DNA of 34,887 nt. Source: Saccoglossus kowalevskii (lineage: Eukaryota > Hemichordata > Enteropneusta > Harrimaniidae). Under the pieces are notes generated by a model, which was not told where the DNA came from, searched no databases, and was given only the letters and a program-made list of their open reading frames with translations. The translations under genes and the position numbers were made by a program. The stretch's first letter is position 1. Each line of letters opens with the position of its first letter. This document shows, piece by piece, positions 1,234 through 34,887 of this stretch. The stretch covers positions 297,391 through 332,277 of the forward strand of contig NW_003116455.1 of assembly GCF_000003605.2 (NCBI RefSeq), in the 5' to 3' direction.

Positions 1234-1762
1234 CTAATCGAGGGGAGGCAAGGGGGGTAGCTGGTACGGTTTTACGGGAAATAAAAAGGGCTTTTCACAA
1301 TTTACGAAGAAAAAAAAGACGTTTTTACAGTTTACAGTGTTAACAAATGGAACATTGAATGGTCCGAAGAGCTCTCCGACTCAAATCCTCCACCATTGCT
1401 GCGCCGTGTGAAGAGACGCATGCGCATATTACCCTCGTAATGCTCTTCTTTTGGTTAGAGGGCCTTTTACGTCTTGACACTCAATTTTATAGTGAATTGT
1501 GTCATCTAGTCGTTTTACAGTTTCTAAAATGTAATTTCCCTGGATTATTCTTTACGATTTTTTTATTTGGATGTGATTTTTTGTACGTACGAGAAAAATG
1601 ACACATTTTTACAGTGTACGAAAAAAATATTTGATTGATTACGTCGTACGTCTAGCCTGTGATTACAGAATTACGGAATTTATTTTTTCTATTTACGTTG
1701 TACGAACAAAAAAATATTGCAATTACGTTGAACGAAAATAACCCTTGCCCCCCTCCTAATCG
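1234..1762. repeat. TTACG-rich inverted-repeat element with 7-bp flanking duplication
   Basis: The direct repeat CTAATCG occurs at 1234-1240 and again at 1756-1762. It brackets about 515 bp whose ends are imperfect inverted repeats: AGGGGAGGCAAGGG on the left and the reverse complement of a CCCTTGCCCCCC-type end on the right, about 11 of 14 matching. The interior is packed with variants of TTTACG, TTTACAG and GTACGA (for example near 1273, 1303, 1323, 1551, 1583, 1606, 1641, 1693, 1722). Matching flanks plus inverted ends suggest a non-autonomous DNA transposon of unknown superfamily; a 7-8 bp duplication would be compatible with hAT-like elements. An open frame at 1359-1601 inside it has no recognisable domain and is not called a gene. 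Confidence 0.6.
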
Positions 1763-1929
1763 GATTCTTGCTAAAAATAAAGATTTTTTTTTACAAGAGA
1801 AATTTAATTTTGAAATGATATTATTTCACCAAACAAATAATGAGTGTGGCATTGGATAACTGATCATAGGTGTTTCGTCAGTCTACCATTATAACATAAA
1901 TTCTGAAATTTAATTTATGACAACTCTAT

Positions 1930-2290
1930 CAAGTAGCGCCACTAACGACGTACCAAAGAAAATAACCCATGAAGCATTGCGTGATATTTCGCTCTTATTT
2001 CACTCGCAGTTCGCTGGATCACCTGTGTTATCGTCGTTGTAGTTCATGGACGTTTTGAACAATATTGTGAAAATATGCAGTTAAATTAGTCAAATGGCTT
2101 GCTTTTACATCGAAGGGGACTCGTGGTTTGTGTGATGTTCACAAGACAGACCAAAAGTTAACTGAAGGACCGCGGAGGGGATTCGTAGCGGTTTTCAAAT
2201 TACGTTGACCGGGCTAGTAGCGAGTTGACCGTCGACGTTGAGATAGGAAGACAGTTTTGCTTGTCGTTTCTAGCGAACACGATAGTAAAG
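1930..2290 (+). promoter_or_regulatory. CpG-rich probable promoter and 5' UTR of the kinesin gene
   Basis: CpG dinucleotides rise sharply here compared with the surrounding AT-rich DNA. I count about 18 CpGs in 2161-2340, while most 180-bp stretches of the intron have only a few. The region ends at the kinesin start codon, so it most likely contains the transcription start and the 5' UTR. The exact start cannot be read from sequence and no convincing TATA box lies close by. An in-frame TAG at 2186-2188 closes the reading frame upstream of the start, and no other in-frame ATG lies between it and 2291. A PuF/CpG-type dispersed start is inferred, not seen. Confidence 0.5.
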
Positions 2291-2328
2291 ATGTCTGCCG
2301 ATGACACGAGTGTCCGTGTGGCAACGAG
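2291..2328 (+). CDS. KIF21 coding exon 1 (start codon to residue 13, partial codon)
   Basis: The first coding exon holds only 38 coding bases: [12 protein letters not shown] plus the first two bases (AG) of Arg13. The start was chosen because this ATG is the first in frame after the TAG at 2186, has A at position -3, and yields the short acidic leader followed by the family's first beta strand (SVRVA). The donor is AG|GTAGGT at 2329. Using the nearby GT at 2333 instead would put a stop codon in frame. Intron phase is 2. The strand ends in Thr12 where relatives usually have Val before the RIRP motif. Confidence 0.88.
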
Positions 2329-5300
2329 GTAGGTAACCGATAACTACAGTTTGTATCTCACAGACGTAAGATTTGACATGTGCCGATCGTTGAGTGCAAG
2401 AGAGCTGGTGATTTGTGTCAACGCAGCTCCAGGTTGGATGTTCAAAGATTGCCGGTGTGTGGATGATATTGTCGTGTCACTGAAAATGATTAATATTCGA
2501 GTACTAGCTATAACGACCATTCGTTTTATATTTCCCCATTACCCGGCAAGCGTAATATTGTCCATTTTACAGCGACTCAGACGTTTATAATATTAATAAT
2601 TTCGAAAGGGAGAAAATTACGTCACAGAACCGTCGCTTACTCATATCCGATTCATTGATTTTTTTGTTGCATTAATTTTATTCGGAAATGCTGCCATGTA
2701 CACAGCACGACTATGAAAGTAGTATAATCGAAATTACAGATTCAGATTGTGTGTCTCAGTTATCATTCGTATTCGTTTCTTGTGCGTTCTCGAGTCGAAC
2801 AATGAGATAACGGGAGTAGCAAACTGGCTATCACTGTCATCTTGTCCCAAGACCAGCTCTTGCAGGCTTGCATGTAACTAAGCCTGTATTGAAAAAACTA
2901 AATTAATTAAGTCAAGGACCCCAACTTGGTACACTTGGTTTACATTTTGTATGTAGTTAATTTGATTAATTTACATATAACAGTTCACAACAAATACACT
3001 GGGTGTGAAATTTTCCGCCTTGTCAAGCATTTATTCCATTCTCTTTAGTTGAATTACATTTATGCTGTACCTGCACTGTCATTGGTGTTGACAAACACTG
3101 TTGATTGTTCCGAGTATTGTCATATGTCACCAGTTGAGTGACAGCTCTGTTGTAGTTTTCACACTGTCCTTTGTCAGTGATTAACTGTGAACTCAATTCA
3201 GGTCAATTTCATCAAGGCTCAATAGTGTGAAAAAACAAACAAAAAGCGATCACATGTCTAAGATCACTTTGGTGATATTTTTATTTATTTTATTCAAGTG
3301 ACCTAGTTAAATCAATCGTAAACTAGCAAGAGCTGATGTAGTTGTAAAAAAGGGTGGGTGAGGTTCTTTTATCCTTTGTTTTTTATGTTACACTGGGTTT
3401 TTTAACAGCAGATTCTTCCACTGTCCAGATAGATCAAAACAAGTTGAAAGTTGCTAGGAATGAACACAGTAGACTATAATTTATGTGTGCATGTTTATAC
3501 GACCAGGCTGATAAATTGTAATCAGTGTCGAAAGATGCAACACCATCGTGACTGAACGAAGGCCAGAGTTTGTGTGTGTGACGAACCTGGTAAATCATAT
3601 CTCCATAATCACAAGAAACTACCTGTTATAAGAATACGATATAGGGATTTTACAGGATAAACGATATTATACTAAAGAAATCAATGAATTTTAACTCTAA
3701 ATCTGATATCATATATATATATATATATGTATCAGCCTCAGATCTTCTCGCTTTCTCATGTCACTATAATGTGGTAGATGTTTCTGGCAGCTAGAAAATT
3801 ATTGTTACAAGTTTCTCATTTTCAAAAGTTCATAAATCTCTGAAAAATTATTTGATCATGCGGATTGAAAAACTAGCATGTGAATATCAACTCATAGCAT
3901 TTTAAATGCTCATGAAGTTTTATGAAGCCAGGATCCTGCCTGTGTTCACTGAGCTCTATTACTATCAAAACCATGGTAAAGACTGGCACTGGTAATTTGA
4001 TAGTTTCTATAAATCATATAACATGTGAGAGATTACCATTGTGTACTGTCTGCAATTGAAGTTGTAAAATTATATGGGTAGCTTTACTGTTTGTAGTTTT
4101 GCTATGATGAGTGTTTATGTTTGTGACATAATCGTTTTTTTGTTTGTTTATCACTTCCTTTCTGTATGTTTATATTGTTATATTTTTGGGCCAAGCAGAT
4201 ATAGGTTCTCAAAGCAATACAATACAAGTCTACCAGTATTATTCAATTTTGAGTTGACTCAGAGATAAACCAAGAGAAATGATGTCGTTTACCTTAATTT
4301 CACTTGTAGAATATTTTGGAACAGATGATAGATGCTATGTTACAATTATTTAAAGTAGTTTTAAAAATTTTGTTTGTCTGATCTTGGAGGTACCTCATGG
4401 TCTGATTTATCACGTTGTCTGTTTTGCACAGTTTTGCTGAAACCATCCTTCCATGGCATCCCTAAAAGTCTGTTCGTAATCAGGTTAGGAAAAGTCCCTG
4501 TTTTGAAGCTGTTTGACCTCTGTTAAACTGAATGGTTTGATTGAGGATGCCAAGGAGCTGAATTCCATCAATCAGAGTTCCTGTAACGACAACTTCCATC
4601 CATTTTAAATATAAACCAATAGATTTTGTCCTCTTATATAATTTAATACTGTAAAATACTTTATTTTCACTTGAAATTAATTTTTGCTATTTTCGTCGAA
4701 GGAATGATTCAGTAAAAATGTGAAAATAAAATCCAGCGAATATTTTTTTTTTTCATATATTTTACTAGTCAAAAATCAGTGAAAATAAAATCCATACAAA
4801 ACACTCAAAAAGTCTTTTCAGTGAAAATTAATTCCAGCTAAAATAAAGTATATCACAGTAGTTTAACCGCCAAAAACATGTGACTTCACGTTTGATTTCC
4901 CATGGAAACGAGTCACGACACTTGATGAAAGATGCATTTATCATGAATAATATTCTAGAAATGAAACTATAGACATACAGATTCAGTTGTAGTCTGAAGT
5001 CCTGAGTCCCTCCCCCTCCCCCTCCCCCTTCTAATACAGTAATGTAGTATGTATAAAGACCAGGAGTCAGTGACACTGTTTTGCAGCGTTTCTTAGATTG
5101 ATAAATATTTACTTGAGTAACAACTTTCTAAATGCCATCTGTACTTTGATACCCAAGTATGTGGCGAACTTTCTAGCAATACTGAGATCAGCTTTCTAGT
5201 TGACACCTGTCATTTTGTAAGCCCCCGATTTAATATCAAATTAAGATTCTTTGTATTGGCTCACTATAAAAAGTAAAGGTCACACCATGTATAAAATAAG

Positions 5301-8300
5301 GATGGCTTTCTCACAAAGTGAAACAAATTCAGCTTCTTGATTTTTTTCTTTTTTCTTCAGCCCCATGATACAACTTTTTCACTGACCTAGCCTTATTACT
5401 GTGCAGTTGTTTGTGGCATGCAGTGACTTCTATCATCTGAACTCACCCCTGTTTTGATTGGTGCTAGTTGTCACGTACATCACTGTATTTAGGTTACGGG
5501 TAATCTTGCTTGTCAAATATTTGATAAGATATTGGAGAATGTGAATATATGTATCCAGTGTGACACGCCCATGCTTTCAATGACATGGGTTCCATTGATA
5601 CTACACATCGTTGTTGTCATTTATTATCACTTGTTTGTATTCTCTGCAAGACGTATAGTTCTATTGCATTTAATACTAATTAATTATTCAATAGGAGCAT
5701 TTACATGTGATGGAATATTCAAACAAATGAACATCTGCATGCATTAGTAGACCCCACCCTAAAAATCTGTCGTTATTGACATAATTGTATTTGGAAACAT
5801 ACATGGGTATTTCCTGGGTAGCCGATTTACTTTCATACATTAAAATATGATAGTTGCTAACTAAATGTATTAAACAAAAAAAAAGACATTTCCAATTCCA
5901 TTGAATATTTACTTACCGGTATGTTTACATGTTTGTAGGACAAGAAATATAATTCTAATCAGATAATAATGCAATTTTCTAGTTGTACAGAATAGTTTTC
6001 AATCACATGGGCATGGCTCACCCATGTTCACGGTAAAAAAAAAAAATGAAATTTGAACACTGCGTGTGTATTTTAATATTAATCAATTAACAGCTGATTA
6101 GCTTGTGAAAAATAATCTTGTCTGACGCTGCCACTGTTATATTGGTACTGGTGTATGATATACACTGATGAATGCTGAAATCTTTACGCAGGTAATAATA
6201 TGCAAGACTACAAATCTGTGTCTCAACATACAGTGCTGCAAGGCCTTTTATGTCCTTGCTACATGTATTTTGATGGAGCCTGCCCAATAATACTGGTAAT
6301 GTGAAATGACTAGGGATATTATTTTAAATCATTCTTATAACAGTTTAATATAAATTATAAACAATATTCATCATGTATAGCTGAGCTGTCACTTAAATTT
6401 AAATATAGAATTGGTATAACGTCAATATTTGCTGGTTATTTATCGTACAACAAATCATTCTTCATTATGATTGTATACATGACTTGGTCTTCTATATTCT
6501 GTAGGGCCCAGCTTTTTTTTCAATAAAGCCAACATTTATAAAAAAAACACTTTTAATATATTTCTAATAAAATAATTAACTGTTTTGAAGGGCACCAACT
6601 CAGTGAGGTTATATTAATTATATAAATTAGTATATTAAATTATATTAAAACTCCACTGATATCATACAGTGTGAACAAATTATTACAATTTCTTTCAAAG
6701 TTTTATTGTATTAGGACCATAGAGCCGAATATGAGGGATAAGAAACACTGATGAAAAACAATATACCAGTAGTACATGTAATAGTTTATTTGCATATGAT
6801 GTTGCTTTGCATACGTTATTAGAGCATCAGGCAGACTACTTTCTAGGGTCTATGATAGGAACCATGACCCTTTTGATTACTCTGCAAAAAAACCAAAACA
6901 ATAATTCTGAAAATTTAATCCTATTATAAAGTAACTTGACAGTATTAATATTATTTCATCAGTGTAAACAGTGCTATAGTAGATGTTGATTAGTTTATTA
7001 ATTTAAACTGGATGTTTGTTGACCATATTTTCTTATCTGGTTTTATGAACAGTATACACTGTATAAAAAAGTACATGTGAAATTCTGATGAAATGTTTTT
7101 TTAATAGTACCTACAATCATTAATTGGTTTATAAGCGGTTTTAAAAGTTAAGATATAACTGGTAAATTTTATCAACTGCACTGTTTGTAATGCCTGGCAC
7201 ATGACAGATTACCTACCATTTCTTCTATTGTCCTCTTCTAGATTGTTAAATTGTTACTGATTGTTAGTTGAGGCATTAAACGATAAAACAGTGGTCAGTA
7301 TGTATGTCAGCGTAGTCTCAGAACGCCTATCGGTATTATGATATACCTTGACCTCGATATAGGGAATGTGTACGTGGGTATACATGTGTATTTAGCCTCT
7401 TTTGCACTTCACTATGCATACACTGTGTAATCACTGACCACTATCTACAAATCTGTCATTGCACTTTGAATGTACACTGTGCATAGTATGTAATTGTAAA
7501 TAAGCATGTATTGTACTTCAACTTTTATCTGCTCAAGTCAATGTTAAAAGTACATGGGTCTAGCAGGATAAAGGTAAATGCTTGTATTTTAATTAATGAA
7601 TGAACGAAGACGACAATTCAGGAACAACACTGTTACATGTCACTGTTTTTTTTTTTCTGTGAATTCTTTCTGGAAATTAAAACAACTACTACATGTAGAG
7701 ATTCCCCCAGATGATTTACAATACAATTCTTCTAGCTTCTTGACTCTATAATAAAAATCTGGGAAGTAGGTAGTGAGTTTTATATGCATGCTTTATTAGC
7801 ATAATTGTACCATTAACGCTATGTGGACATTGTTGTTGATGGCAAGGTAATGATATTGTTAATGGTATTGAGAAGTTTGCATTGTACTCTATTGTAATTG
7901 TTAAGTTGGCCTTTTTTTAATGATCTGACAAGGTGGGGCTCTCCCAGGTACACTAGTTGTCATTTTTATTTTTGTCAAAAGAATCACTTTTAATGTATGC
8001 TGCACACAGTTGTGTCATTCTACCAATAGGAATGATGAAAGTCAATACTGTATTGTCACACAACTGAATAAACAGTGTGTCTATTCTACACATGAACAAA
8101 GCATTGCCTCATTCTTGGAGTTATGAATATGGGCAAATTTTCTGTCAAGCAACAAAAAACGTCTTAAATGCAGAAAGAAGTAAAACCTTGAAAGTAAAAC
8201 CTTGGGGAAATTATCGGTAGATGCATTTAGGGTAGTACATAGATGTGATTAATTTGTCTTCATTAGATGTGTTTATCTGTAAAATTTATTAATATTTGTT

Positions 8301-11300
8301 GTCCTCTACCGTCTATCATCAATCTATGTGTTAATGACTGCTAACCTAATCTCACACACTTGTATAATTATTCTTGCACATTGTTTTGTGAAATTGTCCG
8401 GGTATGAATATAACAAAACTCTGTCCATGATTCTCTCAATATGTATACCAGTATATTCTCTAAATTAATTCTTAATATACCGGTAGGTCACTTCAAACTG
8501 TTTGAACAACAATGTAAACATTTGTCACAAATTAAACAACATGTACAATATGTAATTTTTCTGGAAATGAATCCTAATTTTGGAGCCAACAGATAAAATG
8601 TAAGTCAGTTTTCAGTTTTTACTCAAAAAATTTGGCTATTTTTTCCCAGTCCTCTGAGAGTAAGTACAGACTATAAACAGGACTATTTTGTGAATTAGTG
8701 GTGGTGAAAAGGGTTAATGAAAAATCATAGAAAAATACATAAACTAGTCAATAAACTAGGCTGTTCAAATGATTTAAACAATAGAAAATTTGGTTTGCTA
8801 TAACATTGACTTAAAAATACTATTTTTAAAAACAGAATCAAAGTCTCATATGAAATCACTTGATTAAACAAATGTGAACAGCATCTTTAAACTATTTTGT
8901 TATAAATTGATTAAAATGCATTCATATTAAACATGTGTGCCTGGCCAATCCTACGTACCCTATGACACTGATCCACTCATGTGCGTCTTAAAACTAATGG
9001 GCTAATTATAGAATAATAATTACAATACAGTTATCATTCAACTAGTTCTCTTTTTTGCACCTGTGGAAATCAAATTCAGTATAGGTATTTCAGTTTGGTA
9101 TTCACATTTTCATTTCAATCTGCAAAAAAAAAAATAATAATTGAACACCATGTTAGCTGTCAAAATTGTGGTGGTTGATTTTGTACATTTTTATGTTTTT
9201 TGATGAAATATGTATAATTGTTTGAAAGCAGTAATGAAGAAAGTTATGGAGGTTTAGTTTGTTAAAGGCAATCTGCTGTTAGTAAATGCGTGACCTGAAC
9301 AACATTGGTATTTGCCTAATGCCTGGTAGCCTTGATGCCCTGTGAAATTTAAGAGTCCAAGACAATTTTAAAAATTTACCTTAAAAATGTGTGCCCTTAG
9401 AATTACGAAATTCAACCTGTGTGTGTGTGCGTGTTTGAATATTGTCTCCTTGTACTTCATTGTATTCTCAGAGTAAATTATATATTCCATTGGTAAGGAC
9501 AGCCATGTTGAATATTTAAATATATTCAAAATATAGCTGATTGTCATTTGTTGTATAATGTATGTTACCTCAGGCCTGCTTGCTTTGTCAGAAGGGCATT
9601 TATGTAAGCGCATGTAATATTTAAACAATTTGCTTAGCTCTTAAGCAGATGATTTACAAGGTGTATTGATTATATATGTACTGTATGATAATTAGTTTAC
9701 AACCCTCAATATTAGAAAAATAAACATAAAAGGGGTCATACACTTTTTTTATCTCAATCATCCCAATACTGTTATTTGTATGTACCCATCATGCATTGCA
9801 TTTGCGTGACATGGATGTTCTGTATCCATGCAGACTGGCTGGATTGATTCTGATTAAAATAAGTCTTATAAAATAGTTACCGGCAGTAACAGGGCTAGTT
9901 ACCCATTTCTCTCTATACCTTCATAAAAATTTAAAAAATAATTCTGACTTCATGCTGTTAAACTATTACTAATTCTGTGATTAAAGGCTTTATTTTGAAA
10001 AAGATTTGTCCAATATAATATACCCTTCACATTATTTTATCCAAAGTGGCCATATTGGAAGAGACTATTATTAGAAGAGGTAGGAAAACTACCCTTGCGA
10101 TGTGGCCGGTCCTGAAATCAGATAATGATTCTCTGGGTTAGTATGTGTTTAAATACTTTTAAAATCCAACATTGCAGAATTATAAATTTACAAAAGTTCA
10201 TCGTTTTGTTGAGCTGCTTGTTGGTTCACCACTACTATCATAAGGTACTTCAAATAATGGTATAATCCAAATAAGAAAGTTCATCCATTAAAGTGGGGTT
10301 CATTTTCATGACTGCAATTGCAGTACAATATAATGTATCAATTTATCTTTGAATATTAACTAAGGGATAATCTGATATACAGCTGACTTTTTGCTCTACT
10401 AATTTTAATATTATCTGTACTCAGCTACGCTATGTCTCTCGTTATTCCTCTGGGAATCCATATTTGGGAATATTACAATGCACATCATAACTCTCTGAAA
10501 TTCATTGTTTATTTATTTATACATGACTGCATGAAATGTTCAGATAATACCATGTAACTGTGATGTAGCCTTTGTTACGATTGTAATAATTACTGACTTT
10601 GACTACCATTTGAACTTCTACTCCATACATGTTCATGTATATTATGGACAGCAGTCACTGGTTTACACTCGTGTATTTTAAACAAACTCTTATTTTTTAT
10701 TCTTAATAATAACCCATTCTCTGACATTCGTGCAAAAACAGTATTCACTGTGGAGGTGACCTCAAAAATAAACGATGACGATGATCAATGGAGGGGTCTG
10801 GATGGTGATGTGTCCTGGACAGACTGTCATCAGTGTGGTTTAATCTCGTATTTTGATTAATGTAGGTGCCATTATAGTATAGCTAAAGACAAAATAGCAT
10901 GTAACTTATTACATCTCACAGGAATCATGGATATGCAAGGGACCTCAAAATGGTAAAATTTGAATCCAGTGAATACATTTATAATGTATAACTCAATCAT
11001 TACTTGTGATGCAGTAGAGTTTGTTTTCAGGTCATTGCTTCCAATTTGATATGCAGAATGTACATTAACCATACAGTCTGTATCAATACAAATCGAAATA
11101 TGCAGAAATACTTTATTGTTAACGGTTATTGTAAAGCTAGGCTTTTGTTATGTTAATGAATTCAGTATAATCTGGGCTCCAAAATGATCACCTGAAATTA
11201 TAAAATTTTATATCACTGATATAAATCACTAAATAATATTACAGAGGTTTTAATAATAAGCAATAAAAATAAATTGTTCCTTGCTCATCCTGCACGTCAG

Positions 11301-14300
11301 CTCGAAAAGGGTTGCTTGTGATGGTTTCTGGCAATATATTAAAAAAAAGAGGTGCTCACAATACCGTATTTTTTTATATTCAGTCAGTAATGCATAAAAC
11401 ACACAAATGTTTCATTTACCAAGCTTTTATGTAACATTACAAGAAAAAAATTATTCGCCACCAGAATAATTTTTCTTTTTTGCGTAGAAAAAATAAAATG
11501 GATTTTATCACATGTGTGGAAGTTGTATTCTAAGTGGCCTCTTTATGTCATGTAGATTTATTTAAATAAATGCCTGATTGGTGCATTCTATGTCATTTGA
11601 GTACTGTGTAATGATCTTCATTATAGTCTGTGTATGGACATGTATGTCTATCATTTGAAGATGTAAACTGAGTAGAATCTCACAGAATTGTTGAACATTT
11701 TTATCACATGTGATAATAATAGCATGGTGTGTAATGTTGTACAATAAGGCACACTCCAGGGTTTCAGTTAGCATATTAGTTTGTAATGACCCCCTAAGGA
11801 AAGACCTTGTTGCCTCAGGTTATGAAGATTATTTGTCATGCAATTTACTATTAATAAATTTATTTCATTTACCGGTACAGTTTGTTGTAGTCTGTATATA
11901 CAAATGACAGAATATTGTTGAAACTTATTAATTTTTACTAAATTGAAGAGAAAACGTAAGCCTGTCATTGAGGCGCACATTTATTCCATTTGAAGTATAA
12001 TGTCACCATAGTTACTTAACACAAGTCTATGTTAATAATCCACTATGCAATAAATAGATCTTTTCTTTGTAATTGATGAGTATCTCTTAAAGGGGAACCA
12101 CTCAATCCTATGGATTGCACCAAAGAATCATGGGACACTATTGTTTATGTTGTTTACAATGTTAATCTATCTTTTGTTAGCCATTGTTATTTTAATCCAG
12201 CGAGTAAATTTGTTTTGAAATTAGGCTTAACTGGAAGGTGCCCCTTTAATCACATTGCTGCATGTGTATTTTGTAATATCATTGTTAGATATAGCATGTT
12301 CGGGTCAAAATGGGTTATGAGTGATCGTAAACTAAAAATGTAGCTCTTGCGTTCATTGAATAATGACAAACTCTACTATACATGTGAAGTAGTTATTATA
12401 TTTACCAAAAATAAAACAATAAGTACACACACATATTAATGAATTTCCTTGTTTCATTGATGTATGAATCAATGTGTGTTCATCCATATACAGTAACCAT
12501 CAGCAGTGTTAAAAATTTCATGTTTTTAATCATGTTACATGTTTAACCTTTTCACCACCAGACTTTCTCACCCAAATATTTCAGCACTAATTTTCTTATA
12601 TTCTTCAATATTTCTGGAAATGAACCCTAATTTTAAGTTTTTACTCAAAAAATTTGGCTACTTTTGTCTCAATCTTCTGAAGGAAAGTGCAGACCATAAA
12701 GGGGACTATTTTGTGAATTTGTGATGAAAAGAGGGAAATGGTGGTGGAAAAGTTAAGGTTAATATTTTCAGACATCTACCAAGAACTATACAATGTTCAT
12801 TTGCATAGTTTTATTATTTCCCTTTAAATCGTATAATATTATAATTATATTGTCTATAGTTAAGTTTTCCTGCCATATTTGAATACTGCATGTAGGTGTG
12901 GGTAAAAGTCTGCTGTATTTCATTTCTGCAATCTGTGACAGGTACACAGGTGTACAAAATGCCCGGGGTGGTGGGGGTGGTGGATTGACACCTTCATGTC
13001 TGTCAGCAGCTTGATGCAGAATGTTGGCATTTCTAGTTCAGTTGCTACAGCACAATAATCATGAATAAAGTGCAGCAACTTTATCATCACTGGGCAGCAT
13101 GGTTGAGCTGTTACCGGTGCATGCGATCCATTAGGAAAATTATAAGGCATCCCTAACCCGATATTCTATACTTTTAAAAACCCATGCGGCATTTTACAGA
13201 CCCAGGGTCAGCGTGCAAGTCGAGTAGCAATCAGTGAATGTTGCTTTTTATTGTGTGGTTGCAAAAGCACTTCACCATGTTAACAGTTGCATGACTTGTA
13301 TTTCGTGCTCTGGGGAAGTCAGAATAGAAAACGTGTGGTTATAATGTTTGGGTGTCGAAGTGGAAAAGTATAAAGTTCTCGTCTAGTTTCAGTATTATAA
13401 AGTCGTAATATAAGTGTGGTTGTTGTTTTGATGGTACGTATTGTTGTGTTGATTAGTTTGACACTCCGGGCACACTTTTTATCTCCCTTTTCCTTCTCCG
13501 TTTTGCTTTACTGGTTAGTGAATGTTGTAACATGGTTATTGTGTCTTGGGTGCTCATAAAAACAGCCGTGCTTTCTTTGTTAATTTGAAAGCAGTGTATT
13601 GGACGTCCCAGCTGTTGTAGTTGTAGCAGTGCAAGACAGGCTTGTATTTACACAAGATGTATTATATCAGTAATGTGGGATGCTATCGGGCAGCAGAGGG
13701 ATTCTATGCCGTAGTATAGATATTCAAATCATGGGCAGACTTATACTTATACCCCATTGAGTGTACACATGCGTCTATTGGTGTTATTTGCACACAGTCA
13801 CATGCGTTTTGTAGCCTGCTATTTTACAATCAGCGGAACACATCATGACACGTGCATGTATTGTGTGGGTCACTGTTCTTTCGTTGAACCTGAATGTGTT
13901 AGAAGTTCAACATTTAATGGCCGACTGCATGCTTTCACCTGCTGCCCTTTTTTGCATGATTTACATGTGCACATTGTATTATATGCATTTAATTTTGTAC
14001 ACCAATTTTATCAATGTATGCAACATGTATACTATCAATACAGATGATTACCAAAACAAAAAAACTGACTGACTACTAGTTCTATGGGATTTCAAAGTAC
14101 ATCTTACACACAAAGCCAGCAAGTTGTGTACTAAAAAATTAGCATCATTCAAATGTCCCAAAAATGAATCTAAAAAAGCCACTGTGAGTATGGAAACCTC
14201 GCAATAAAATTGACTCAGATAACATTTACTGCATATTGCGCCTTTAGCAAAGTGTTGTTTTGAGAAATATCATTGGTGACTGTATGACCTTGTGGATTTG

Positions 14301-17300
14301 GGTACTGTTTTATACTATAAAAGTACTGGCTTTTAATTTTACTATTTTTGCTGAAATCTGCTAAACCAAATTTGAATTAACATGTAAAATTAGAACAGAA
14401 ATTGTTATTTTTTACTGAGAAATATGATCAAAATCTAATTGAAATTGAATGCCAATGAAACATTGCTTTTTACAGTACGTCAAAACCTATATTTGTGGAG
14501 GTTTGTGCTCAAGTCAAATTTACCTGACCACTGCCATCAAGATATTTTTGTTGCTATTTGATTTACAGACCTGGTCATGGTACGCTTATAAAAACGTCCT
14601 GCTGGGCAGTACCCTGGTAGTACCTCCAGGTAAAGAAAAATTTAGGTTTCTTGGTCTTGTAGCATATAAATCGATTCAAAGCCTAACTATATAGCCGTTG
14701 GCATGATCATGCAGAAAGGCACATTTGATTCACATGCGGTTGAGGGATGAGCGATACGCTATAATTCATTACGTTGTCAAGATATTGTCGAAATGTCCAA
14801 TCAATTCTTTGTGTTCATGTGTAAACTTTTCATACTCCCCTACACTAACCCTTTGGTGCTTCTTGGTAAAGAAAATTTCTTTGTGTTGTAGCATATAAAT
14901 CTATTCACAGCTTAACTATATGGCTGTGGCGGATTTATAAATTTATGATCATGCAGAAAGGTGCATGTGATTTACAAGTATTTGAGGGATGAGTTTATGC
15001 TGTAATTCATTACACTGTCAAGTTTTGGTCAAACTATGCATGTACAAACAATGTCTTGTGTCTATGTGTAAACTTTTATTGCCCACCGAGATCAACTGTT
15101 TGAGAGCCAAAGTCAATTTTTGAATTGTTGTCTTTCACAAATTTAAACTGCATAATTATATCTGTTTCATCTAAATTAACAAAGAAATTATAGAAAAATG
15201 CACAAAATCTTGAACCGGAATTTTGGAGGTAAAAATGTTGGCGTTTATTGGGTTAATATGGTTTGTGAGAAAATGGGGTTGGTTTGATCTGACTGCTGCA
15301 TACATCTTGATTGTTTTGTTTTTTTCACTCATAAACCTTATTGATTATTGATGTGCTGTCGTAGCAGTTTTTGGTTGTCATTTTTAATGATAAATTAAAG
15401 ATGTTAAATCCAGGTACATACAGCCCTGGTTATGGTAGGGTTTCCGTACTGCATGACCACAGCGCCTCACAGTTGTTAACGAGCTATTGTTTAATGCCCA
15501 GAGAACCAGGAATTCTTACCCTTTAATGTGTCATAGCTACATTGGAATTTCTACTCTAAACCGTGTCATCCGGAAATTGTCAGGAATTCTTTATATGATA
15601 ACACACAGTGGAAAATATTAGAATTATGCGACACGTAGTACTCTGTAAGCTCATAATCCTGAATCTCATCACCCTGTGACATTCCTCATATAAATCTAGG
15701 GATAATTAATGAAACCTTGTTGGTCCCTATTGTGGATATTCTTCTTTTCTCTTGAGCCGTTCTAGTAAAGCATGCTGAGGTCATGTGGTTCCATCGAAGC
15801 ATACTCCAGGACTTGTCAGTTAATGAGGTGATTTCTAGAGCATGATGGACACACATACTTTTAAAGCTTATCCAGCAATTTCTATATCAATATTATGATA
15901 AATTTTAAATCAGGTCACCTACTACCGTAGTATTTGAAATTGTTCACCTGGTAATAAGACCTGGTATAATAAAAGTTATTTGTTGTTTATGAGTCTAATT
16001 GTTTTTGTTTATTTGCTCATCAGTGTGCCGTATAAGCTGATATGACGCGTCACTGACGCACTGACGAGTTTTGCTGTGACGCAACTACGTGTAGGTTTTC
16101 TAATTCACTGGAACATCATTGAAGCAACAGAGAAATGTATAGTGATAGTGATCTTGAAAAAGGTCTTCCTATAGTTGCGTACTTATAGATTAATAAAACA
16201 AAATCAACATTATATAAATAAACATTTTCGTTTGTGCATCAAGTTACCAATACAGCCACATACATTTTTTTTTAGCTCTGCTGTCGACTTTGTCGAGCAG
16301 AGCTTATCATATGAGTGATTGTCCATCGTCGTCCGTGTCAATGTTTTACTTTTTCGACTTCTTCTTGAAAACTACAAGCCTGAATGCTTTGATACTTGGT
16401 GTATTTGTACCTTGGGTAGACCTCTCTCAGATTTGTTCATTTTGTAATGATATCTTCAATTCTCTAATTTTAATTAATATTTTTGTCATTTTTGGTAAAA
16501 AGTGATATTTTCGACTTCTTGTTAAAAAACGCAAGTCCAATTGCTTTGATATTACATATATAGGTACTACATGTGGACCTCTCTAAGATTTGTTCATTTT
16601 GTAATGATATCTTTAATTCTCTAATTTTGGTGAATATTTTTGTCATTTTTAGTAAAAAGTGATATTTTTGACTTCTTGTTAAAAACCACAAATCCAATTG
16701 CTTTGATATTACATATATAGGTACTACATGTGGACCTCTCTAAGATTTGTTCATTTTGTAATGATATCTTTAATTCTCTAATTTTGGTGAATATTTTTGT
16801 CATTTTTAGTAAAAAGTGATATTTTTGACTTCTTGTTAAAAACCACAAGTCCAATTGCTTTGATATTACATATATATGTACTACATGTGGACCACTCTCA
16901 AATCTTTTCATTTCATGATGATATCTTCAATTCTCTAATTTTGATGAATATTTTTGTCATTTTTGGTAAAAAGTGATATTTTCGACTTCTTGTTAAAAAC
17001 CACAATCATTTATGGTAAAAAATGATATTTTTGAATTCTTGTTGAAAACAGCAAGTCCCATAGCATTGATACTATGCATATTGTTCATTTTCTAATGATA
17101 TCTTTTGTTCTTTAATTGAAATGTTCATTGCTAACAGCGGAGATATCTCAACCGAGAGACTGCTTGTTTATAAAAACCACTCTCACCAGTAGTCAACAAG
17201 GTTACTCAACTTGAGATGAGGGGAATTACATTTTAACTATGGGACCCTGCGAAATCAGTCCTGTTAGAGGGCACATAATGTCTAATCATTGATTTTAATA

Positions 17301-18787
17301 TATTTAAATTAGCTGTTAGGCCCACAAAAAGAAATTTATGGTTATTGTGCATGTCAGCTAAGTGATTGTTTTTCGTCGGTCGTTGGTCAGCAATAACCTT
17401 CAGAAAAATGAGAGAAACTTCGTATTGCATCAATTTTGAAATATACAGATTGGTCAGAAACTTTTTGTGCCTTAGTAACTTGACATTGTGAAAGTGGACA
17501 TCACAGTTACATTTAAACAATGCATTTCACATACGTGTTGTCGTATAGGACTTGTATTGAACACGATGAATGGTAGCAATCACTGCCCTTCAACCCTGCT
17601 ACCAGTTGTCACCACATTTGAAGATAACAAGTCTGACTCAGCAGTATTTTACGCTGAAATTCGTTTACACTTCTCGACAAAACTAACTTGTATAAATAAT
17701 TTATAGAATTTGTTTTAAAAAACATGTATACTGTATAATAGTCACTGCGACCTTGCTGTTACATTCAGACTGCTCTGACAACTGTTGCTGGGAAAGAACC
17801 CACTGAAAATACTTTATGCTTTCCTGTATTAATCTGTATTTCTGATAGCATGTGTATCATCTGTCCAGCATCAATCACTCTTCACCAATGTTATTAGCAC
17901 ATACAGCCTTATTCTAAATATTTACAAATTGAAGCAGTACATATCAACAATAATTCCTTGTATTTGTCCATGGCTTTTATTGTATAATTTTCTGTTGATT
18001 GATATCTGTATGAAAATACATTATACATACTGTAAAACACTTTAAAACAGCTAGATGTCATTTTAGCAATTTGGCTCAATCCACAAATTAACAGAATCTT
18101 AATGTAAACTGAAGTGTCAATAATCTTTCATTGTAATGAGAGTATATATTTCTTTTAAATTTTTTAAATCTTGATTTAGTGAATTTATAGTTAAAATAAA
18201 TTATTAAAGTGGGGGAGTCGTCATCTCGCATGCATCAGTTGGCCATATCGTGTCATTGTTTACAAGCAGGTGTCTACCCATAAGCCTTTGTGATTCTTTC
18301 CATTACCAGATTTGTTAAACTTGTATCACTCTCTGGTACAATATGCCTGTTGTGATACCACAGCTTTCCATAATGCAGGGCAATTGGGTGATCTATTTTT
18401 TTTTTTTGTGCAAAATGATACATCTTTCGATATGTATCCAATCACATTCATGTGCATTGTCTTTTGGGTTCTTCTTGGTACCACTTTTATAGATCTATAG
18501 ACTGTGACCAAGTCTATCATGAACCAAGGTTTTAGTCACTTTTAATAAAAAAAAAAATTGTTTAAATACTCTCAGACTGAACTCAGTTTGTCAAGGGGTG
18601 GCCACTTTAAACTCAAGGGGAGGGGTGGCATACAGCGATAACTGCATGAAAATATACATTTACGTCTCATTCATTCTGATAACACTACGTTTAAGTGAAA
18701 TTAAGTGATAATTTGCACAGTTTTTTTACTACCATCCCTCTCCCAGAGTTTCCAATGATCATGCCATTAGGTATACACAGAAACTGC

Positions 18788-18825
<38 letters not shown>

Positions 18826-21800
18826 TTATTTTATCTTCAGAAATACACATTTTTCTCAGTATATAGAATTGAAATATTAATCAATACAAAAAAATAAAAT
18901 AAAAAAGAACAAGTCACAAGTTAGTAAGAAGAATTTAAAAAAGTAAAAAGTTCAAATCACATATATTTTTGTGTGCGTTGTTGGAATGCCATGAAGATAA
19001 ATTGTGCAACATGCTTAATTGAGGTTTTGTCTGTTATTGTCATTATAAATTGAAATTTTTCATTATTGGTTTTAATTTCTTTTGGGAATACTAGTATTAT
19101 ATGTGAGAACAAATCTTGTCGCAATGTCATGTATTTTGAACAAACTAAATGTTCTTCATCTTCTATATATTCTATATTCCACTCATTCTCTGCGAGTCCA
19201 AGAAGATGTCAGGGCTCTGTAATCTTGGGTAGATTGTACATGACTTAACATTCAGTAACGATGGTAATCAGTTTCCTTCTGTCAACAACAACATACAGCA
19301 GTACATTTAGAATAACATGTGCATGTATGGATTACCCATACACAGATTTCATGTAGGACTTGAGATACGTGTGCAGAGTACAAATTAACTGTACTCTTAG
19401 TAATTGGTAATCTTCGGTACTATAGATGTCTAATTGAACTGCTCACAAGGGTGAAAGATCAAATGCAAGTAACCTATTCTGTTAAACGTTGATTGCTTGG
19501 TGTGTATATTTTGGTTTATTTTGTGTGTACCCAGGTGGTGTGCCATGCTTGGTAAATCAAGTGTTGATTTTTGAGACTGAGGTAACGATTCTGCTCCAGT
19601 GGTTCTTGAATGTTCATGTAATTCCTGCCATGGGTTCTGCTGCATTTGCACATAGTTTTGCCGATAGAAATGGGTCAAGTGATAGATAATAGCAATAACA
19701 TGTAATTCGGGAATTCCGTAGAAATTTTGGTAAATGACCCAGTGTGAAGAAAAGCATTTAAGCTTTGCTATGCTTCAGTGATGCTATGTTGTGTGCAAAT
19801 CAAGCTTTCTTCCCCTCTCATTAATGTACCGGGGTATGTTGTTTGCTTTCTAGCACGTAGTTCAGTGTACAAATCTGAGCCGTTGCCATGTTGTTACAGC
19901 AATTGATTAAACACAATGCGACAATCTTACCTAATGAAATCAGAGGATAATCCTCATTTTAAATTGCCGAAATGTGAAAGCCCGGATAAGTCAAGAGTGA
20001 AATCCTTCCTCTGTTATCCTACTCAAGAATTCAATGTTGTACAGTCAAGGGAACTATCTCTAATCACAACCAGACACTGGTGGGTTAATGTAGTTTATCA
20101 AATTATATTGACCGGTCATAAAATATTAACTGAATCAGACTGTTGGGAAATATGATTACCTTTATTAAGGAAATGCTCACAACTTTTGCCAGTGTTCATC
20201 AATATCATAATATTAAATTATTGTTTATTTAATATTTATCAAATTGTGTTACTTTTTCAAATGTATACATATATCCAATATAAGTCATTTTAATAATTAG
20301 TAGCTACTATACATGTAATACTTAAATTTATTAATCACATGGACCTAAACTTCTTTTAGTTGCTGAAGTGCTTCATTACCATATTTGCTCTGTAACAGCA
20401 AGTCTCACAAGTATTGGGAGGCAGTCACCAAATTGGCTTACTGATTGGGTTTTGACTAAACAGTTAGCTTTTGAATGTCACTGGCACCGACTTGTTTGCA
20501 AATTGGCTGGCCCCTATACTTCTGAGACTTGCTGTAAAAGCCCATCTTTATTAAAAGACCATATAAAACAAAAATAGCATTTGTCATATGCTGAATCTTT
20601 AGAACATTACTTTGACCATAGAAGTGCCTCTGTAATATAAATGTACATTGCATGTAAGCACCTGTGCTACTACTAAAGAACAAAAACAGTAATATGATTT
20701 TTAATTTTGCTGCTTACCTGATTGATTCTATTGTACATTCAAAGCACATGCTACATGTTTACTTGTCTTGTACCCTATACTGAGAAAAAGGCTCATGTAA
20801 AAAAAATCTTTTTTTTTCTGGTTATTATGCTGATCCAAAAAATCCTACTGCCTCAACCAACATTTTTCATTTAAACTACAAAGTTCTTTTGTGTGCGTTT
20901 TGTGTGCAATTTCCCTTTAAGTTAAGTTCTTTAGATGTTGCTGTTCATTTTTAGCAAAATGATTAGAATTAGAAACCTTGTACCATGGTAGATTCGTTTT
21001 TGAGGTTAGTGAGAAAGAAATGTAGTTGTTATTGTACATGTAGTTAATAAAATATTTAATTTTATGCATCTCTGATACACTAATCTACTCTGCCCTATCC
21101 TACAATTATGCTGGAACCCATGTGTGAACATGGCTTATGTGATGCTGTTGTACGTGTCCCTCTGAATGGATGGAATTCACTTTGAATTCTGTATCTGATT
21201 TACAAACTGTTGACCTCTAGGTCATATACAACACCTATACTCTCAAAGAAAATCTGCTTTTCTCTGCTTAAAAGCTAATAGAGTTCTCATAAAAGTTTCT
21301 TTTAAATGAATGTGTGTTCATCATACAGTTGAACAGTCGAGTACAATAACGCAGCACACAGCCTTTTTACAATAGAGGTTAAATCCTAGGGATAGTCGAA
21401 GAAGTGCAAGTATGCAGTAAAGTTTCCAAATACAGAATTCCTTTCTCGAAGCTAAACACAAGTTGCTGAGTATCTGTATATTTGTTTTTCCACATGAACA
21501 GTTCTCATGAAACTACTTGTGTTCATTTATAAAAGCCTGAATGTTGGCCCCTATATGTTAGCTTTGAGTGTTGCAGTGCTTTTCCTCTATGGTGTTTGTA
21601 CTGCACAGTCGGTTAGTTTGATATGACAAGTGTGACATGCCCAGATGGCAAAAATAATAGCTAGCTGTCAAATGCCACTGGTCAAGTCATTCTTCACCGG
21701 TTACATGGACATTATGGTTTGTCATCTTGACATACCATTTACGTTGACCCTGTCACACAGCAAGATCTTCAATTGTGTGTTAGCTAATCAACAATGACCA

Positions 21801-24800
21801 CTCTATGAATGAATGACTCATGCCATTTGTAATTGCTGGGCGCTTCTTTAAAAATGTAGTGCACTGTTAATGTTGTTCTTAATTCTCTGTTAAAGAAGTG
21901 GTCTTCACACTGCGCATATGCGAAATTTGTGTTGATAAACATTGATTTTCATTGATAAACATTGATTTTCCCTCTTCTAATGGAAATCACAAGTACATGT
22001 GTGAGGTTTGACCTGGGTGCGATTTGCACTAATTACCGCCGGTAGCTTCTTCAATACCTTCCAATCACCTAAAAAATGTCTAATTGAAGCTTGGTAATAA
22101 CTCGTTGATCTGCACAACAGTCAAAGTTGCCATCTTTGTTTATACGAGTCTTGTATATTTCATGCATGCGTGGAGTGACGACTTCCACCCTTTAAGAATT
22201 CTTTGCTAATCTCTGACTACAGTGGATTTTATTATTGCAGATAAATTGAGATACCATATTTCTTCTATTTGAAGTGCATCTTCAAAAAGAGTGCATGTAA
22301 ACCATAAGTTGCATTTATTGTATACTGGTTAGTTAAATACAACTTATTTTGATCATAGACAGATCTTTGCTTTATGTACTACGCATGGGCTACTAACAAC
22401 AAACGTGTAATCTGCATTTGATTACTCGGCTGGCTGTTTTCGTGTGTTCCTATAACTAGTATCTATTGTAATCTACACTAGTTGATGGGAATGAATTAAG
22501 AGCTCTAAAATTGTGGTTCTATGCAGTTTTATATTTAGTAAATGCTTTGCCTATTCTAAGATTAGGGGTCTATATTACTTGCGTTTCATTGCAATACATT
22601 TGTACATGTATGTCAATCATTTGTTTTCTACACCCGTTTTCTACAAAAAAGCCAGTAGAAAGTGTAGTTGTCTGGATCAATACTGAAAACAACAGGAATT
22701 CACATTGACTCATAAAGTCATACTTTTAAGGTACATATATTATCAGTTAGCTTGTTATTCATATCTGAACAGTAACCCCCATTCGTTGGTGATATTTCGG
22801 ATCAGACTATATTTTATATTCTTCAAGGGGCACATGTGTAGTTATAACCAGAGACTTGTACATGGTCCCTTGACAATTAATCTTCGTTCTAGTTGATATG
22901 CCTTTATGAAGCTGTATATCATGGGGTCTCTGGTCTTTATATTGAAACTTAAAACCAAGTTGGACCACCCGTAGCTGATGTAGTGAAGTTAATAGAGCTT
23001 GAATTTGAACTTGTTCTTGGCTGTGTTCTTCTTCTTAAGCGTGAAGTCACTTGTTAAATAGAGTATAATTTATTGTTACTTTTAGTGTATTGCAGTACTC
23101 ATGAATTTCTTGTGCATGTGCTTTAATTAATGTTGTAAAGGTTTATCTTTTATGCCACTGTAAATCATGAAGTTTTGCTATAGGGAAAGTAAATTCACTG
23201 ATGTACATCAGGTACTTTCTAGTTTATAAGGTTAATGATTTAATAACTACTCATTACCAAAACATACATGCTGCATATGCATATATTAACATCTACCCAC
23301 ATTAATTGACATTTGCATATTAAGTTCATAAACTATTCTTTTAAATTATTGCCTTGTTGCAACATTAGGAAACACAATTTTCCACATTTTTGTCATAGTT
23401 ATTAAATCATGGTAACCAACTTTAAATAAACTTTATTAGGTAGCTATTGTTTGGGCTTTGCATCTTGGGTGCTTGCAATGTGGGCGTGGTGCTATTATAT
23501 AATTATGGAATTATGTGATAAAACTAAGTTTTCTTGTACCACATGTACTTGAAATATCATTGAGTTAGACCATACAGTTTGTACATTATCAGTGATTCAG
23601 ATGCTCATTATTTGCTGGCATTTTTGTCAACTAATTTTGTTCAATCATATCAGCCAAAGTGTTTTTTGTATAATTTATTTAATTTACATCCAAAATATAG
23701 GAAATAATTAGAAATGTCCTATGACGCTAGTTGTCATTTTTGACAAAATGTCCTCAGCTAATTTAAGACAATTGAACCAGTGCATCATTGTTATCAGACT
23801 CTGATTGTCTGATGCCAAATAAAAAAAACATAGTAGTTAGTATAACCTGTTTTTAGCTCCGCTGTCGACTTTGTCGGGCAGAGCTTATCATATGAGTGAT
23901 TGTCCGTCGTCGTCGTCCATAGTCAGTCGTCGTCCGTGTCAATGTTTTACTTTTTCGACTTCTTCTTGAAAACTACAAGCCTGAATGCTTTGATACTTGG
24001 TGCATATGTACCTTGGGTAGACCTCTCAGATTTGTTCATTTCATGATCATATCTTCAATTCTCTAATTTTAGTGAATATTTTTGTCATTTTTGGTAAAAA
24101 GTGATATTTTCGACTTCTTGTTAAAAACCGCAAGTCCAACTGCTTTGATATTACATATATATGTACTACATGTGGACCTCTCTCAGATTTGTTCATTTTG
24201 TAATGATATCTTTAATTCTCTAATTTTGGTGAATATTTTTGTCATTTTTGGTAAAAAGTGATATTTTCAACTTCTTGTAAAAAACTGCAAGTCAAATTGC
24301 TTTGATATTATATTACATATATAGGTACTACATGTGGACCTCTCTCAGATTTGTTCATTTTGTAGTGATATCTTTAATTTTCTAATTTTGATGAATATTT
24401 TTGTCATTTTTGGTAAAAAGTGATATTTTCGACTTCTTGTTAAAAACCACAATCATTTATAGTGAAAAATGATATTTTTGAATTCTTGTTGACAACAGCA
24501 AGTCCCATTGCATTGATACTATGCATATTGTTCATTTTCTAATGATATCTTCTGTTCTTTAATTGAAATGTGCAGTGCTAACAGCGGAGCTATCTCAGCC
24601 GAGAGGCTGCTTGTTTAAAATTATTAGAGTGCCGGTACTTTAATATTTGTGTTTCATTTTTTTTCTTGCTTATACGTATTTTTTTTTTTAGATAAGAATG
24701 TCATAAATCATGTTTAAAGTTGTTTAAATTACCCAGTTTTGCAAAGTTTTGTATCTTTTGTAAAATCTCATTCAAAGGGAGGAATATTTTGTGAAGTTTT

Positions 24801-27800
24801 CTCAAATATGCTGGCGAACAAATTCTAGGGCCAGGCAGTAATTTTTTTTTTCTCGGCCTAATGGAAGTTGGTACTGTTTAATATTAGCTATTTTCTCATA
24901 GAAACATTAGCCAAGTGGTTCTCATTAGGTTATCCCACTCTAAAAATACAAATGTATTAAAAGTATTTTGTAACACAGCATGCCATTCGGATTAGGATCT
25001 ATAATCAGGACTTAAAATACACATTTTATCTAAGTATTAAGTCTTTAGAATGTGTATACATTTTAAAATCTGGTACTCCAATTGCAATAACTTGGTATGT
25101 CATGGAGGATGGGGATATCAGTAATATTATTTGAGTCACCAGATAGTCTTACATGATTACATCATGTTACCTTTTGACATTTAAACTCATTAAACTGTGA
25201 TATATATTGTTTTTTATACTGGCCCATAATTTCTCTTAAAGTGCTACAGTTGTCGTGCACTTTGCATGCTCGTCTCTATGGGTCATATATTGAACAGGAT
25301 ACGGAGCAACAACTGTAGCACTGTAATTGAATTTGTTTACACTTTTTTTCTTATATTCTTTAATATTAGGTTCTGTAGTGTTCTATACCAGGGTCCCATA
25401 CTGCATACATGTACATGTACATGTATCATGAATAATTAATTAGCAATGCATACGTCTTGAATAGACCATAGCACTTAACTTCGCGTCAACCAATATTTAA
25501 AAAAAAAATTATAAAAACAACAATATAATTGTCATAGCTGAATGTAATTTTTAAATTCAAAAAACCATAATTGCAATTAATTAGTTAAGCTTAGCAAACA
25601 AAACTAAAATAAAATGTAAAAATTTGAATTTGAATTGAGATCCACTCTGAGATGCACTGTATGCCCTGGTATGACAAGTCGGTTTTTGCAAAAGCCTACC
25701 CATGCAATACATCAGTCAAGATTAATAATGCGTATCCTGCAATTTAAAAGTTCTGGTTGTCCATAGAGTTAAATAAAGTGAGTGAACTGTGACTCTGGTG
25801 TCACCCCCTTCAAATAAAGGCTTCTTCCTGTCCATTCAACCCACTGTGTGTTATGTCAGTAACCAAGTCAAGTCACTATGATCTATGTATCTCTGTAGTT
25901 TTCAGATTATCTATAGGGAGGTAACCTAACAATAGCGGTGAAACATGTGTAATAAACAGTGTTAGGAAATACTTTCTTTTTCTGCTTATTGTTTCTGTTA
26001 GTTTTGTTTGGAGTTGTAGGACTTTAGACGTGTGGCTGGGGGTCTTGATTATAAACTATCCATCATGTTCAGTGAAGGATTGTTTATCTTTAACCCAGGG
26101 GCTGGATTCGTGATATTTTCCATACAACTTCCTCTATCTGTGATAAGCTAAGTTATTTGTATAATTTTTAATTGGAATGCTGTTGTTTTTCTACCTGATT
26201 ATGCAGGCTATAAATGAGTTTATGAGTGTTACCCCCCCCCCCCCCTCCCCGGTAGGTAAATATTACCTGTAACAAATTTTGTTGTAACCAGAAATGTTTG
26301 CAATAAACCAATTTTTGTTCACTGCGAAATGTAAAAAAAGGACAAACAAAGATCATTATGTCTCAGTGGCGTCAATACTAGTACGGTACATCGTGTGTGA
26401 TTCAACATAATTAAAAGTATTCTAAAGGTGTTTCCTTGCTTAATAATTAATATGCTTCACATATAAGATGATGGTCAATTTTGATGACTATAGAAAATGA
26501 AATTCAAAATTAAATCATTTGAGCAGGATATAGAGAAAACCGTTGTCCCTCCATGGACTGGTCTGGAAACTGACTGAATTTAAACAGAGCATGTCATGGG
26601 TAATAATAACTCGCACCTTTTAGACGATATTCATGCTTATCAATAACTGCTGAAGACACGTACCTGCCCACAGAAAGTGACCATGGACAGTATTAAAACG
26701 TTTTGTAATGTATTTTGTAGAATTCAACTTGAACTAGCCCACCGTATTACACCCACTATTCCAAACATGGTTTTAAAGATTTTTTTATGATACTTTTAAT
26801 AAATAAATCAGAAAAAAATGACTATAATTGTCGTTGCTATGCAATGTATGCATTGTTAACAGGATTGAACCAATTCACACCTCAAACAATTGCCTTTTTC
26901 AGACCAGTCTAAAGAGGGACTGTGAAAAAACTATGATGGTCTCTTTATATAATTCTTTTTACTCTACTTAATTCCCAGTTTAATGACATATGAAGATGAA
27001 GCAGTTATTTGTGTAATGAAATGTTAATTATATCTGTCCATATGTTTGTACCTTGTATAATGTATGCATGAACATGTATACACTTAAAACAATAACTGAC
27101 TAATTTAAAGCATTTATTTTTTGCTGATGACATTTTTTGAGATTACAAAATTCACCAACAGTGACAGTGTCATAGGACAGCAGAGACTGCTACAAAATTT
27201 GGTGATTTCTGCATTTCAGAATAATTCTGAACAGAATCAAATGTTTTCAGAAGCATTAGTAACGAAATTTGAAATTAAAATCAATTGTCGGGGCTCAGAT
27301 ATAGATATGCTGAAAATCATCACAATTTTAATGTTTATTATATATTTTCCACAATTCATACCATAAAATATTTCATAAAATATTTAGTAATACTCTAAAA
27401 ACTGCAGTATTAAAACCTCTATGAATGCCTTCAGAGCTCAGCTTCAATTGGATGCTGTATACTACCTTAGTAGATTTTTTCAGCATTGTGCTTGGCTTTG
27501 GCAGGTGTGTGTTTGTTTGTTTGTTACATGTTGTGGATATAATAGCAGTCTTTACTATGGTGTGGGTTACAGATTCAACATTAATAGTTGCTATTTTGAG
27601 TTCAGTGAGCAGTACATCTGATAATCTGTGTAAATGGCTGTAATTATTTATTGACTTTGTAACTTGAGGATTCTTTATCTAGAGTGAAGAATATCTGTGC
27701 CAAACACATGTACAACTGGTTGGGGTTCATTGTGACTCCACTGTATGGATGAGATATTTATTTCAATTCAAGATAATTTTAAAAAGAGAATTGTGTATAT

Positions 27801-34262: not shown

Positions 34263-34887
34263 GTGAGTTTGAGTTCAGAAGAACTGTTGGTTACGTCATG
34301 GCACTGCGTTTCTCATCAGTTCCGGACTGCCCAGGATCGTCACTTGCCTTGGGAGTCTTCTCCCGGATATTTCACATGCTCCAAATCCGATATTGTTTCT
34401 GCTGTTAATGTCATAGGTTACAAAGAAATAATTGAAACGTATCAGATATGCAATGTTTTTATTTCTATTTATTCATTCTCTTGCTCTAGTATGTAATTTA
34501 AAAAGCATGGTTGAATTATCAAGTTGGTTCACTTAAGAACTTTTTGGGTTGAATGTATTTAAATCCGTTGAGCTTTTATAACATTTTCAGCATGTCATGA
34601 AATACTGTATTTACACTTTCAAAAGGTGTATAAATTTAATTAACTTCTGATTTTGAGCTAATGAAAAATTTACAAAAATTGATATGTTTAGGCAATGCCA
34701 TATTAACCATGATTGATAATTTCAAAATAAGTTTACTGTGAATTCATATAAACAGGCATAGAATGAATGAATCAATCAATCAATCAATCAATCAATCAAC
34801 TTCGATCCATAGCTGTAATAAATTGCCATGGCTTAGTCACAACAGGATCTGCCTTTTACATCCTTGTGCATAGGGAGTTATTTTACT
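34263..34887 (+). other. KIF21 intron 3, 5' part
   Basis: Begins with the consensus donor GTGAGT right after codon 148 (phase 0) and runs off the window. Nothing coding is seen; it contains the TCAA-type microsatellite at 34761-34799. The next coding exon, expected to start with the LYNEE-like segment of the motor, is not in the window. Confidence 0.85.
34761..34799. repeat. TGAA then (TCAA)n microsatellite
   Basis: Two GAAT-type units lead into about seven perfect ATCA tetranucleotides in intron 3. Likely polymorphic; no other structure. Confidence 0.85.

Follow-up and report, generated by a model that had tools for sequence, protein, structure and literature searches.

A high-copy repeat family resembling non-autonomous Helentron-associated elements in Saccoglossus kowalevskii

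The window analysed here is a stretch of 34,887 nucleotides from the hemichordate Saccoglossus kowalevskii (NCBI RefSeq assembly GCF_000003605.2, contig NW_003116455.1, positions 297,391 to 332,277 of the forward strand), found at C1001:297391-332277 in our numbering of the host assembly (572,110,611 bases in 4830 contigs). Direct reading and alignment reveal two related stretches on its + strand, 7.6 kb apart. They agree at 707 of 741 aligned bases (95.4%), not counting gaps, which stem mainly from the additional core unit of copy 1. We present evidence that both copies very probably belong to one high-copy, non-autonomous family of Helentron-associated elements (HINEs), similar to DINE-1.

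Structure of the two copies in the window

The two copies share one layout. A T run is followed by a 31-nt hairpin, whose first arm is a subterminal inverted repeat, then by a CGTC-rich spacer and a tandem core, which ends in a last unit of 153 nt that is truncated or diverged. Beyond it lie the other copy of the subterminal inverted repeat and a palindrome whose loop reads GAGA, and the element closes with CTTG, followed by Ts. The ends of the family are the AGCTCCGCTGT hairpin and CAGCCGAGAGGCTGCTTG. An earlier note, made from the letters of the window alone, had placed the copies at 16271-17170 and 23852-24617. Its parts are all present, its order of parts (hairpins, inverted repeats, CGTC spacer, core of about 157 bp, truncated unit, GAGA loop) is accurate in both copies, and its ends are accurate to one or two bases, although the last bases that it gave, 17170 and 24617, are both the first base of the flank. 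The features, by position in the window, are as follows.

16265 to 16273, + strand: T run where copy 1 meets its target on the 5' side, made up of target Ts and presumably about two Ts of the element
16274 to 16304, + strand: 5' hairpin of copy 1; its first arm with T16273 is the 5' subterminal inverted repeat (fold and 41-copy comparison)
16317 to 16338, + strand: short CGTC-rich spacer of copy 1, 20 nt shorter than that of copy 2 (reading and alignment)
16353 to 17133, + strand: tandem core of copy 1, four 157-nt units from 16353 plus the 153-nt truncated or diverged last unit at 16981-17133 (Tandem Repeats Finder, TRF, and unit comparison)
17134 to 17145, + strand: 3' subterminal inverted repeat of copy 1, diverged (alignment)
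17149 to 17162, + strand: 3' palindrome of copy 1 with a GAGA loop, two pairs broken (alignment and fold)
17163 to 17169, + strand: 3' terminus of copy 1, CTTG ending at 17166, then Ts (TTT, 17167-17169)
23850 to 23854, + strand: T run at the 5' boundary of copy 2
23854 to 23865, + strand: 5' subterminal inverted repeat of copy 2, exact
23855 to 23885, + strand: 5' hairpin of copy 2, with mismatched pairs (fold)
23898 to 23940, + strand: CGTC-rich spacer of copy 2 (reading and alignment)
23954 to 24580, + strand: tandem core of copy 2, units of 155, 157 and 162 nt plus the 153-nt truncated or diverged last unit at 24428-24580 (TRF and unit comparison)
24581 to 24592, + strand: 3' subterminal inverted repeat of copy 2, exact
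24596 to 24609, + strand: 3' palindrome of copy 2, 5-bp stem and GAGA loop (fold and 41-copy comparison)
24610 to 24616, + strand: 3' terminus of copy 2, CTTG ending at 24613, then Ts (TTT, 24614-24616)

Neither copy holds an open reading frame of 120 or more amino acids from a start codon, and the longest stop-to-stop frame listed for the core, 101 codons, lies within the repeats.

In copy 2 the two arms of the 12-nt inverted repeat, TAGCTCCGCTGT / ACAGCGGAGCTA, match exactly (23854-23865 and 24581-24592); over 11 nt the repeat is perfect in 25 of 41 copies of the family. The 3' palindrome of copy 2 is CAGCC-GAGA-GGCTG; in that of copy 1 two pairs are broken. The distance to the end of CTTG is 21 nt from the 3' inverted repeat and 4 nt from the palindrome. 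At the other end, the 5' hairpin fold and the majority of the 41 copies show a separate inverted repeat that adjoins the 5' subterminal one.

The majority sequence of the 41 copies has no defect in either the 5' hairpin or the inverted repeat, and its hairpin positions 6 and 26 are C and G. These two positions, both in CpG, are where departures from the hairpin are most frequent. At these positions copy 1 has T and A instead; both changes are transitions of the CpG type, the new bases pair with each other, and the combination occurs in 2 of the 41 copies. The changes restored the pairing of the hairpin and spoiled the inverted repeat. The two window copies had been described as complementing each other, with a perfect 5' hairpin in copy 1 and perfect inverted repeats and 3' hairpin in copy 2. 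This description holds for copy 2, but the 5' hairpin of copy 1 is not the form of the family, and we rejected it as the ancestral form because the majority has C6 and G26.

TRF reported the cores as period 157 repeated 3.7 times and period 162 repeated 2.7 times. The first units of the two copies are 95% alike, compared with 84-87% between first and middle units (gaps left out). The last, truncated units agree equally well between the copies (95%), and for middle units the likeness is 89-97% whether they are taken from one copy or from both. Because the first and last units are specific to their position and the number of middle units differs between the window copies, it is most likely that the element is moved whole and that only its middle units change in number, by gain or loss. 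The same position-specificity across both copies makes independent growth of an array in each copy less likely.

Elsewhere in the window, a kinesin motor domain exon lies at 33954-34493 on the + strand (Pfam Kinesin, E = 8.6e-21). Other diverged direct duplications or inverted-repeat pairs are found at 14647-15102, at 8554-8703 with 12607-12726, at 4647-4860, at 20390-20540 and at 25228-25334, and these are possibly further mobile elements.

Copies and insertion sites across the genome

A search of the host assembly with copy 2 gave 3897 first-look candidates, and 40 were scored. Thirty-four of the 40 (copy 2 included) span the 766-base query from base 1-2 to base 763-766, and the 39 copies other than copy 2 have 89-95% identity to it. 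With up to three mismatches allowed, a 35-nt pattern of the 5' hairpin matched 1646 times (803 forward and 843 reverse) and a 34-nt pattern of the 3' end 3027 times (1170 forward and 1857 reverse), and the reversed control of each pattern matched nowhere, which puts the hairpin count far above chance. Because the 5' pattern used the letters of copy 1, which differ from the majority at two places, the 5' count is low and the higher 3' total may not reflect a true excess of 3' ends. Searching the assembly with both ends, as the earlier note had proposed, yielded many copies with the same termini, and no boundaries well outside these ends were seen. No match came up among viral contigs for the hairpin pattern or among plasmids for copy 2.

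Divergence from the majority ranges from 1.0 to 6.0% over 42 aligned rows (one locus, L049, is present twice), a sample picked for likeness to copy 2 or to the hairpin of copy 1 that may favour young copies. Window copy 2 (L001) stands at 2.3% and copy 1 (L010) at 3.7%. No two separate loci are identical, the closest pair (L004 and L005) having 98.9% identity. These data point to a past and likely fairly recent spread of the family. The earlier proposal that the family is active or recently active is supported in part: the low divergence agrees with recent movement, and no pair of identical separate loci speaks for movement at present.

The matches to the 3' end are skewed by strand, about 12 standard deviations from even if they are taken as independent, whereas the 5' matches are even. 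At one locus (L020, about 1648 to 2111) a 56-bp unit made from the 3' end of the element is repeated in tandem 8.3 times. We tentatively raise the possibility, which we consider less than even, that the 3' terminal module amplifies into tandem arrays, a birth of satellite DNA from the end at which replication would terminate.

We paired the ends at 70 loci, and 52 gave a 5' and 3' pair (56 rows minus three outer rows of nested or doubled-5' structures and one spurious row). At least two Ts precede AGCTC in all 52 paired loci, exactly five in 32 of them, and Ts follow CTTG in 50 loci counted directly and, on reading, in two rows shifted by an indel (L007 and L041). When flanks were compared, excluding those that hold family sequence or belong to a locus counted twice, no two separate loci matched on both sides, and some flanks of different loci matched each other over short stretches of shared repeats. 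The ends are thus fixed between T runs while the flanks differ.

The joined flanks of copy 1 (window 16152-16271 and 17167-17286) match 33 other places in the genome at 67-84% identity, its own two halves excluded. Twenty-seven of the 33 match ranges cross the junction and six start after it. We fetched 20 of the 27, and all 20 align through the junction; such gaps as they show measure at most 7 nt and fall within the T tract or next to it. Having been chosen for crossing the junction, they confirm the empty site and give no rate. The repeat into whose T tract copy 1 inserted is older and dispersed, and has at least 33 relatives in the genome. For copy 2, the joined flanks have 16 other matches, one of which, diverged at 73% identity, crosses the junction and represents an empty site; its local alignment score is 95, compared with a maximum of 32 in 200 shuffles.

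Two nested copies, inserted into other members of the family, give a closer view, the uninterrupted forms being those of other family copies. At L031, GTTCATTTTCTAATG became GTTCATTTTT-[AGCTC...CTTG]-TCTAATG, and at L014, TTTTACTTTTTCGACTTC became TTTTACTTTTT-[AGCTC...CTTG]-TTTGACTTC, if a C-to-T change beside the junction is assumed. The net gain in both is about two Ts outside AGCTC...CTTG. No target duplication outside the T tract was visible in the 20 empty-site alignments of copy 1 or in the two nested insertions. Comparison of boundaries with empty sites, another check that had been suggested, thus indicated that the family enters T tracts and leaves no visible duplication of the target; for this family we saw no insertion of the kind made by a different superfamily, with terminal inverted repeats and a duplication.

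One further locus, L049 (about 420 to 1260), has about 80 bp from the 5' end of one copy, joined at the T run of that end to a second copy that is complete; DNA outside the family follows at once. This structure may be a one-ended or abandoned insertion.

Search for an autonomous partner

The Pfam domain Helitron_like_N gave 8 matches at 7 places in the assembly and none in 14 control genomes. At the best of these places (C2261, 7 kb read), a frame of 977 amino acids carries DUF6570 and Helitron_like_N, and a PIF1-helicase piece of 473 amino acids lies in another frame.

Eleven loci that have a 5' end and no 3' end within 1.5 kb were extended in search of a partner. Six of them (L096, L097, L098, L100, L101 and L103) run into stretches of N of 4.6-8.0 kb, one (L099) has its 3' end 2.1 kb on, and three (L102, L104 and L105) show no 3' end in the extended DNA. 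When four frames of L102 were scanned, an integrase zinc-binding match and a sub-threshold reverse-transcriptase match were found, and L102 was rejected as a retroelement. The remaining locus, L095, holds a family copy of 5453 nt (354-5806) with two inserts that bear inverted ends: one of about 4.05 kb, in which the frames of a DDE_Tnp_1_7 transposase piece are broken, and one of about 0.8 kb, with perfect terminal inverted repeats of 28 nt. Because family sequence continues unbroken on both sides of the inserts, we read them as later nested insertions and rejected L095 as the partner. Tandem repeats near this copy lie downstream of its 3' end.

Identity of the family and its relatives

The layout, the ends, the insertion habit and the lack of coding capacity together argue for a HINE-type element, and the earlier classification as HINE- or DINE-1-like is borne out by the fixed ends, the order of parts, the many copies and the insertion into T tracts. 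HINEs are defined by subterminal inverted repeats of 12-15 bp, a 3' palindrome and central repeats (PMC4067079), all of which HINE-Mo and DINE-1 share with the present family. According to PMC4067079, insertion of Helentrons and HINEs favours TT and leaves the target unduplicated, and the number of Ts that these elements carry varies; the preference for TT, the variable terminal Ts and the unmodified target are common to HINE-Mo, DINE-1 and our family. The inverted repeat adjoining the 5' subterminal repeat is found here and in DINE-1, but not in HINE-Mo (PMC4067079); HINE-Mo also has its 3' subterminal repeat and palindrome farther from the terminus than our family does.

By text description, not by sequence, the family also resembles Cg_HINE of the oyster Crassostrea gigas (PMC7492417). 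Cg_HINE elements have an 11-12 bp 5' subterminal inverted repeat, a complementary inverted repeat, a 3' subterminal inverted repeat and a palindrome, in the same order as here; several of them contain a GTC-type microsatellite, and their units are mostly of 140-180 bp in low number, likewise as here. T-rich insertion, no target duplication and high copy number are shared as well (PMC7492417). The pearl family and DTC84 of bivalves have short arrays of central repeats of about 160 bp between conserved ends, as in our elements (PMC7492417, PMC5139131), a likeness that again rests on descriptions and not on sequence, and pearl and Cg_HINE elements have low and variable unit numbers (PMC7492417). 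A text search of the literature for four end motifs returned three papers, all unrelated by title.

Several observations weigh against a HINE-type identity. Eighteen of the 70 loci gave no end pair, being truncated, gapped or past the mismatch limit. Because the target and the ends are both T-rich, zero duplication is indistinguishable from a duplication of one or two Ts. In mite HINEs the 3' subterminal inverted repeat lies 38-60 nt and the palindrome 8-35 nt from the terminus (PMC4067079), compared with 21 and 4 nt here. No autonomous partner with the family ends was found, one of the seven Helitron_like_N places having been read. At that place, the family 5' pattern was absent from the upstream 5 kb with up to 9 of 25 mismatches allowed, and the 3' pattern had a single match in the 7 kb, with 12 of 28 mismatches; the two Rep/helicase pieces scanned there match no endonuclease family, a hallmark of Helentrons, although an endonuclease might lie further downstream. 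The long family copy at L095 contains a DDE transposase piece (Pfam DDE_Tnp_1_7).

This last observation bears on a rival view, in which the family is a miniature inverted-repeat transposable element (MITE) that moves by cut-and-paste. Pearl-type elements were originally placed in that class, and PMC5139131 lists the related pearl and DTC84 elements as MITEs; short inverted repeats do lie near both ends of our family. However, these repeats are subterminal and asymmetric and are accompanied by extra 5' and 3' hairpins, a target duplication of fixed length is absent from the 20 empty sites of copy 1 and the two nested insertions, and the DDE piece sits within a nested insert that has its own inverted ends, so that we consider a MITE extremely unlikely. 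A non-autonomous canonical Helitron would account for the 3' hairpin near the terminus and for the lack of target duplication, and the genome does have a Helitron_like_N/PIF1 gene. Canonical Helitrons begin with TC and end in CTRR after a hairpin. Our family ends in CTTG-T, has inverted repeats near both ends and inserts in T runs, whereas canonical Helitrons insert between A and T (PMC4067079), and we regard this explanation as very unlikely. A third alternative takes the copies for pieces of a satellite array or for an artefact of assembly. The tandem core speaks for it, but the differing flanks, the fixed ends and the empty sites contradict it, and its probability is negligible.

For the HINE-type family, we infer that the element works as a rolling-circle passenger. 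A Rep/helicase enzyme supplied in trans would nick the ends of the element and peel off one strand, replication would end near the 3' palindrome, and the released strand would join into a TT. The earlier note had placed a Helentron enzyme elsewhere in the genome; Helitron_like_N genes do exist there, but the family ends are absent from the 7 kb at the one place read. Since no family ends were found in the DNA read at C2261 and the DDE piece lies in a nested insert, the partner is inferred, as it is for Cg_HINE, to which its authors could link no autonomous element (PMC7492417).

The family is a new addition to the HINE-type elements already known, and it leaves the known picture of rolling-circle elements unchanged. 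To the rolling-circle spread of satellite-like repeats in invertebrate genomes, it adds a family documented in its ends, copy numbers and empty sites.

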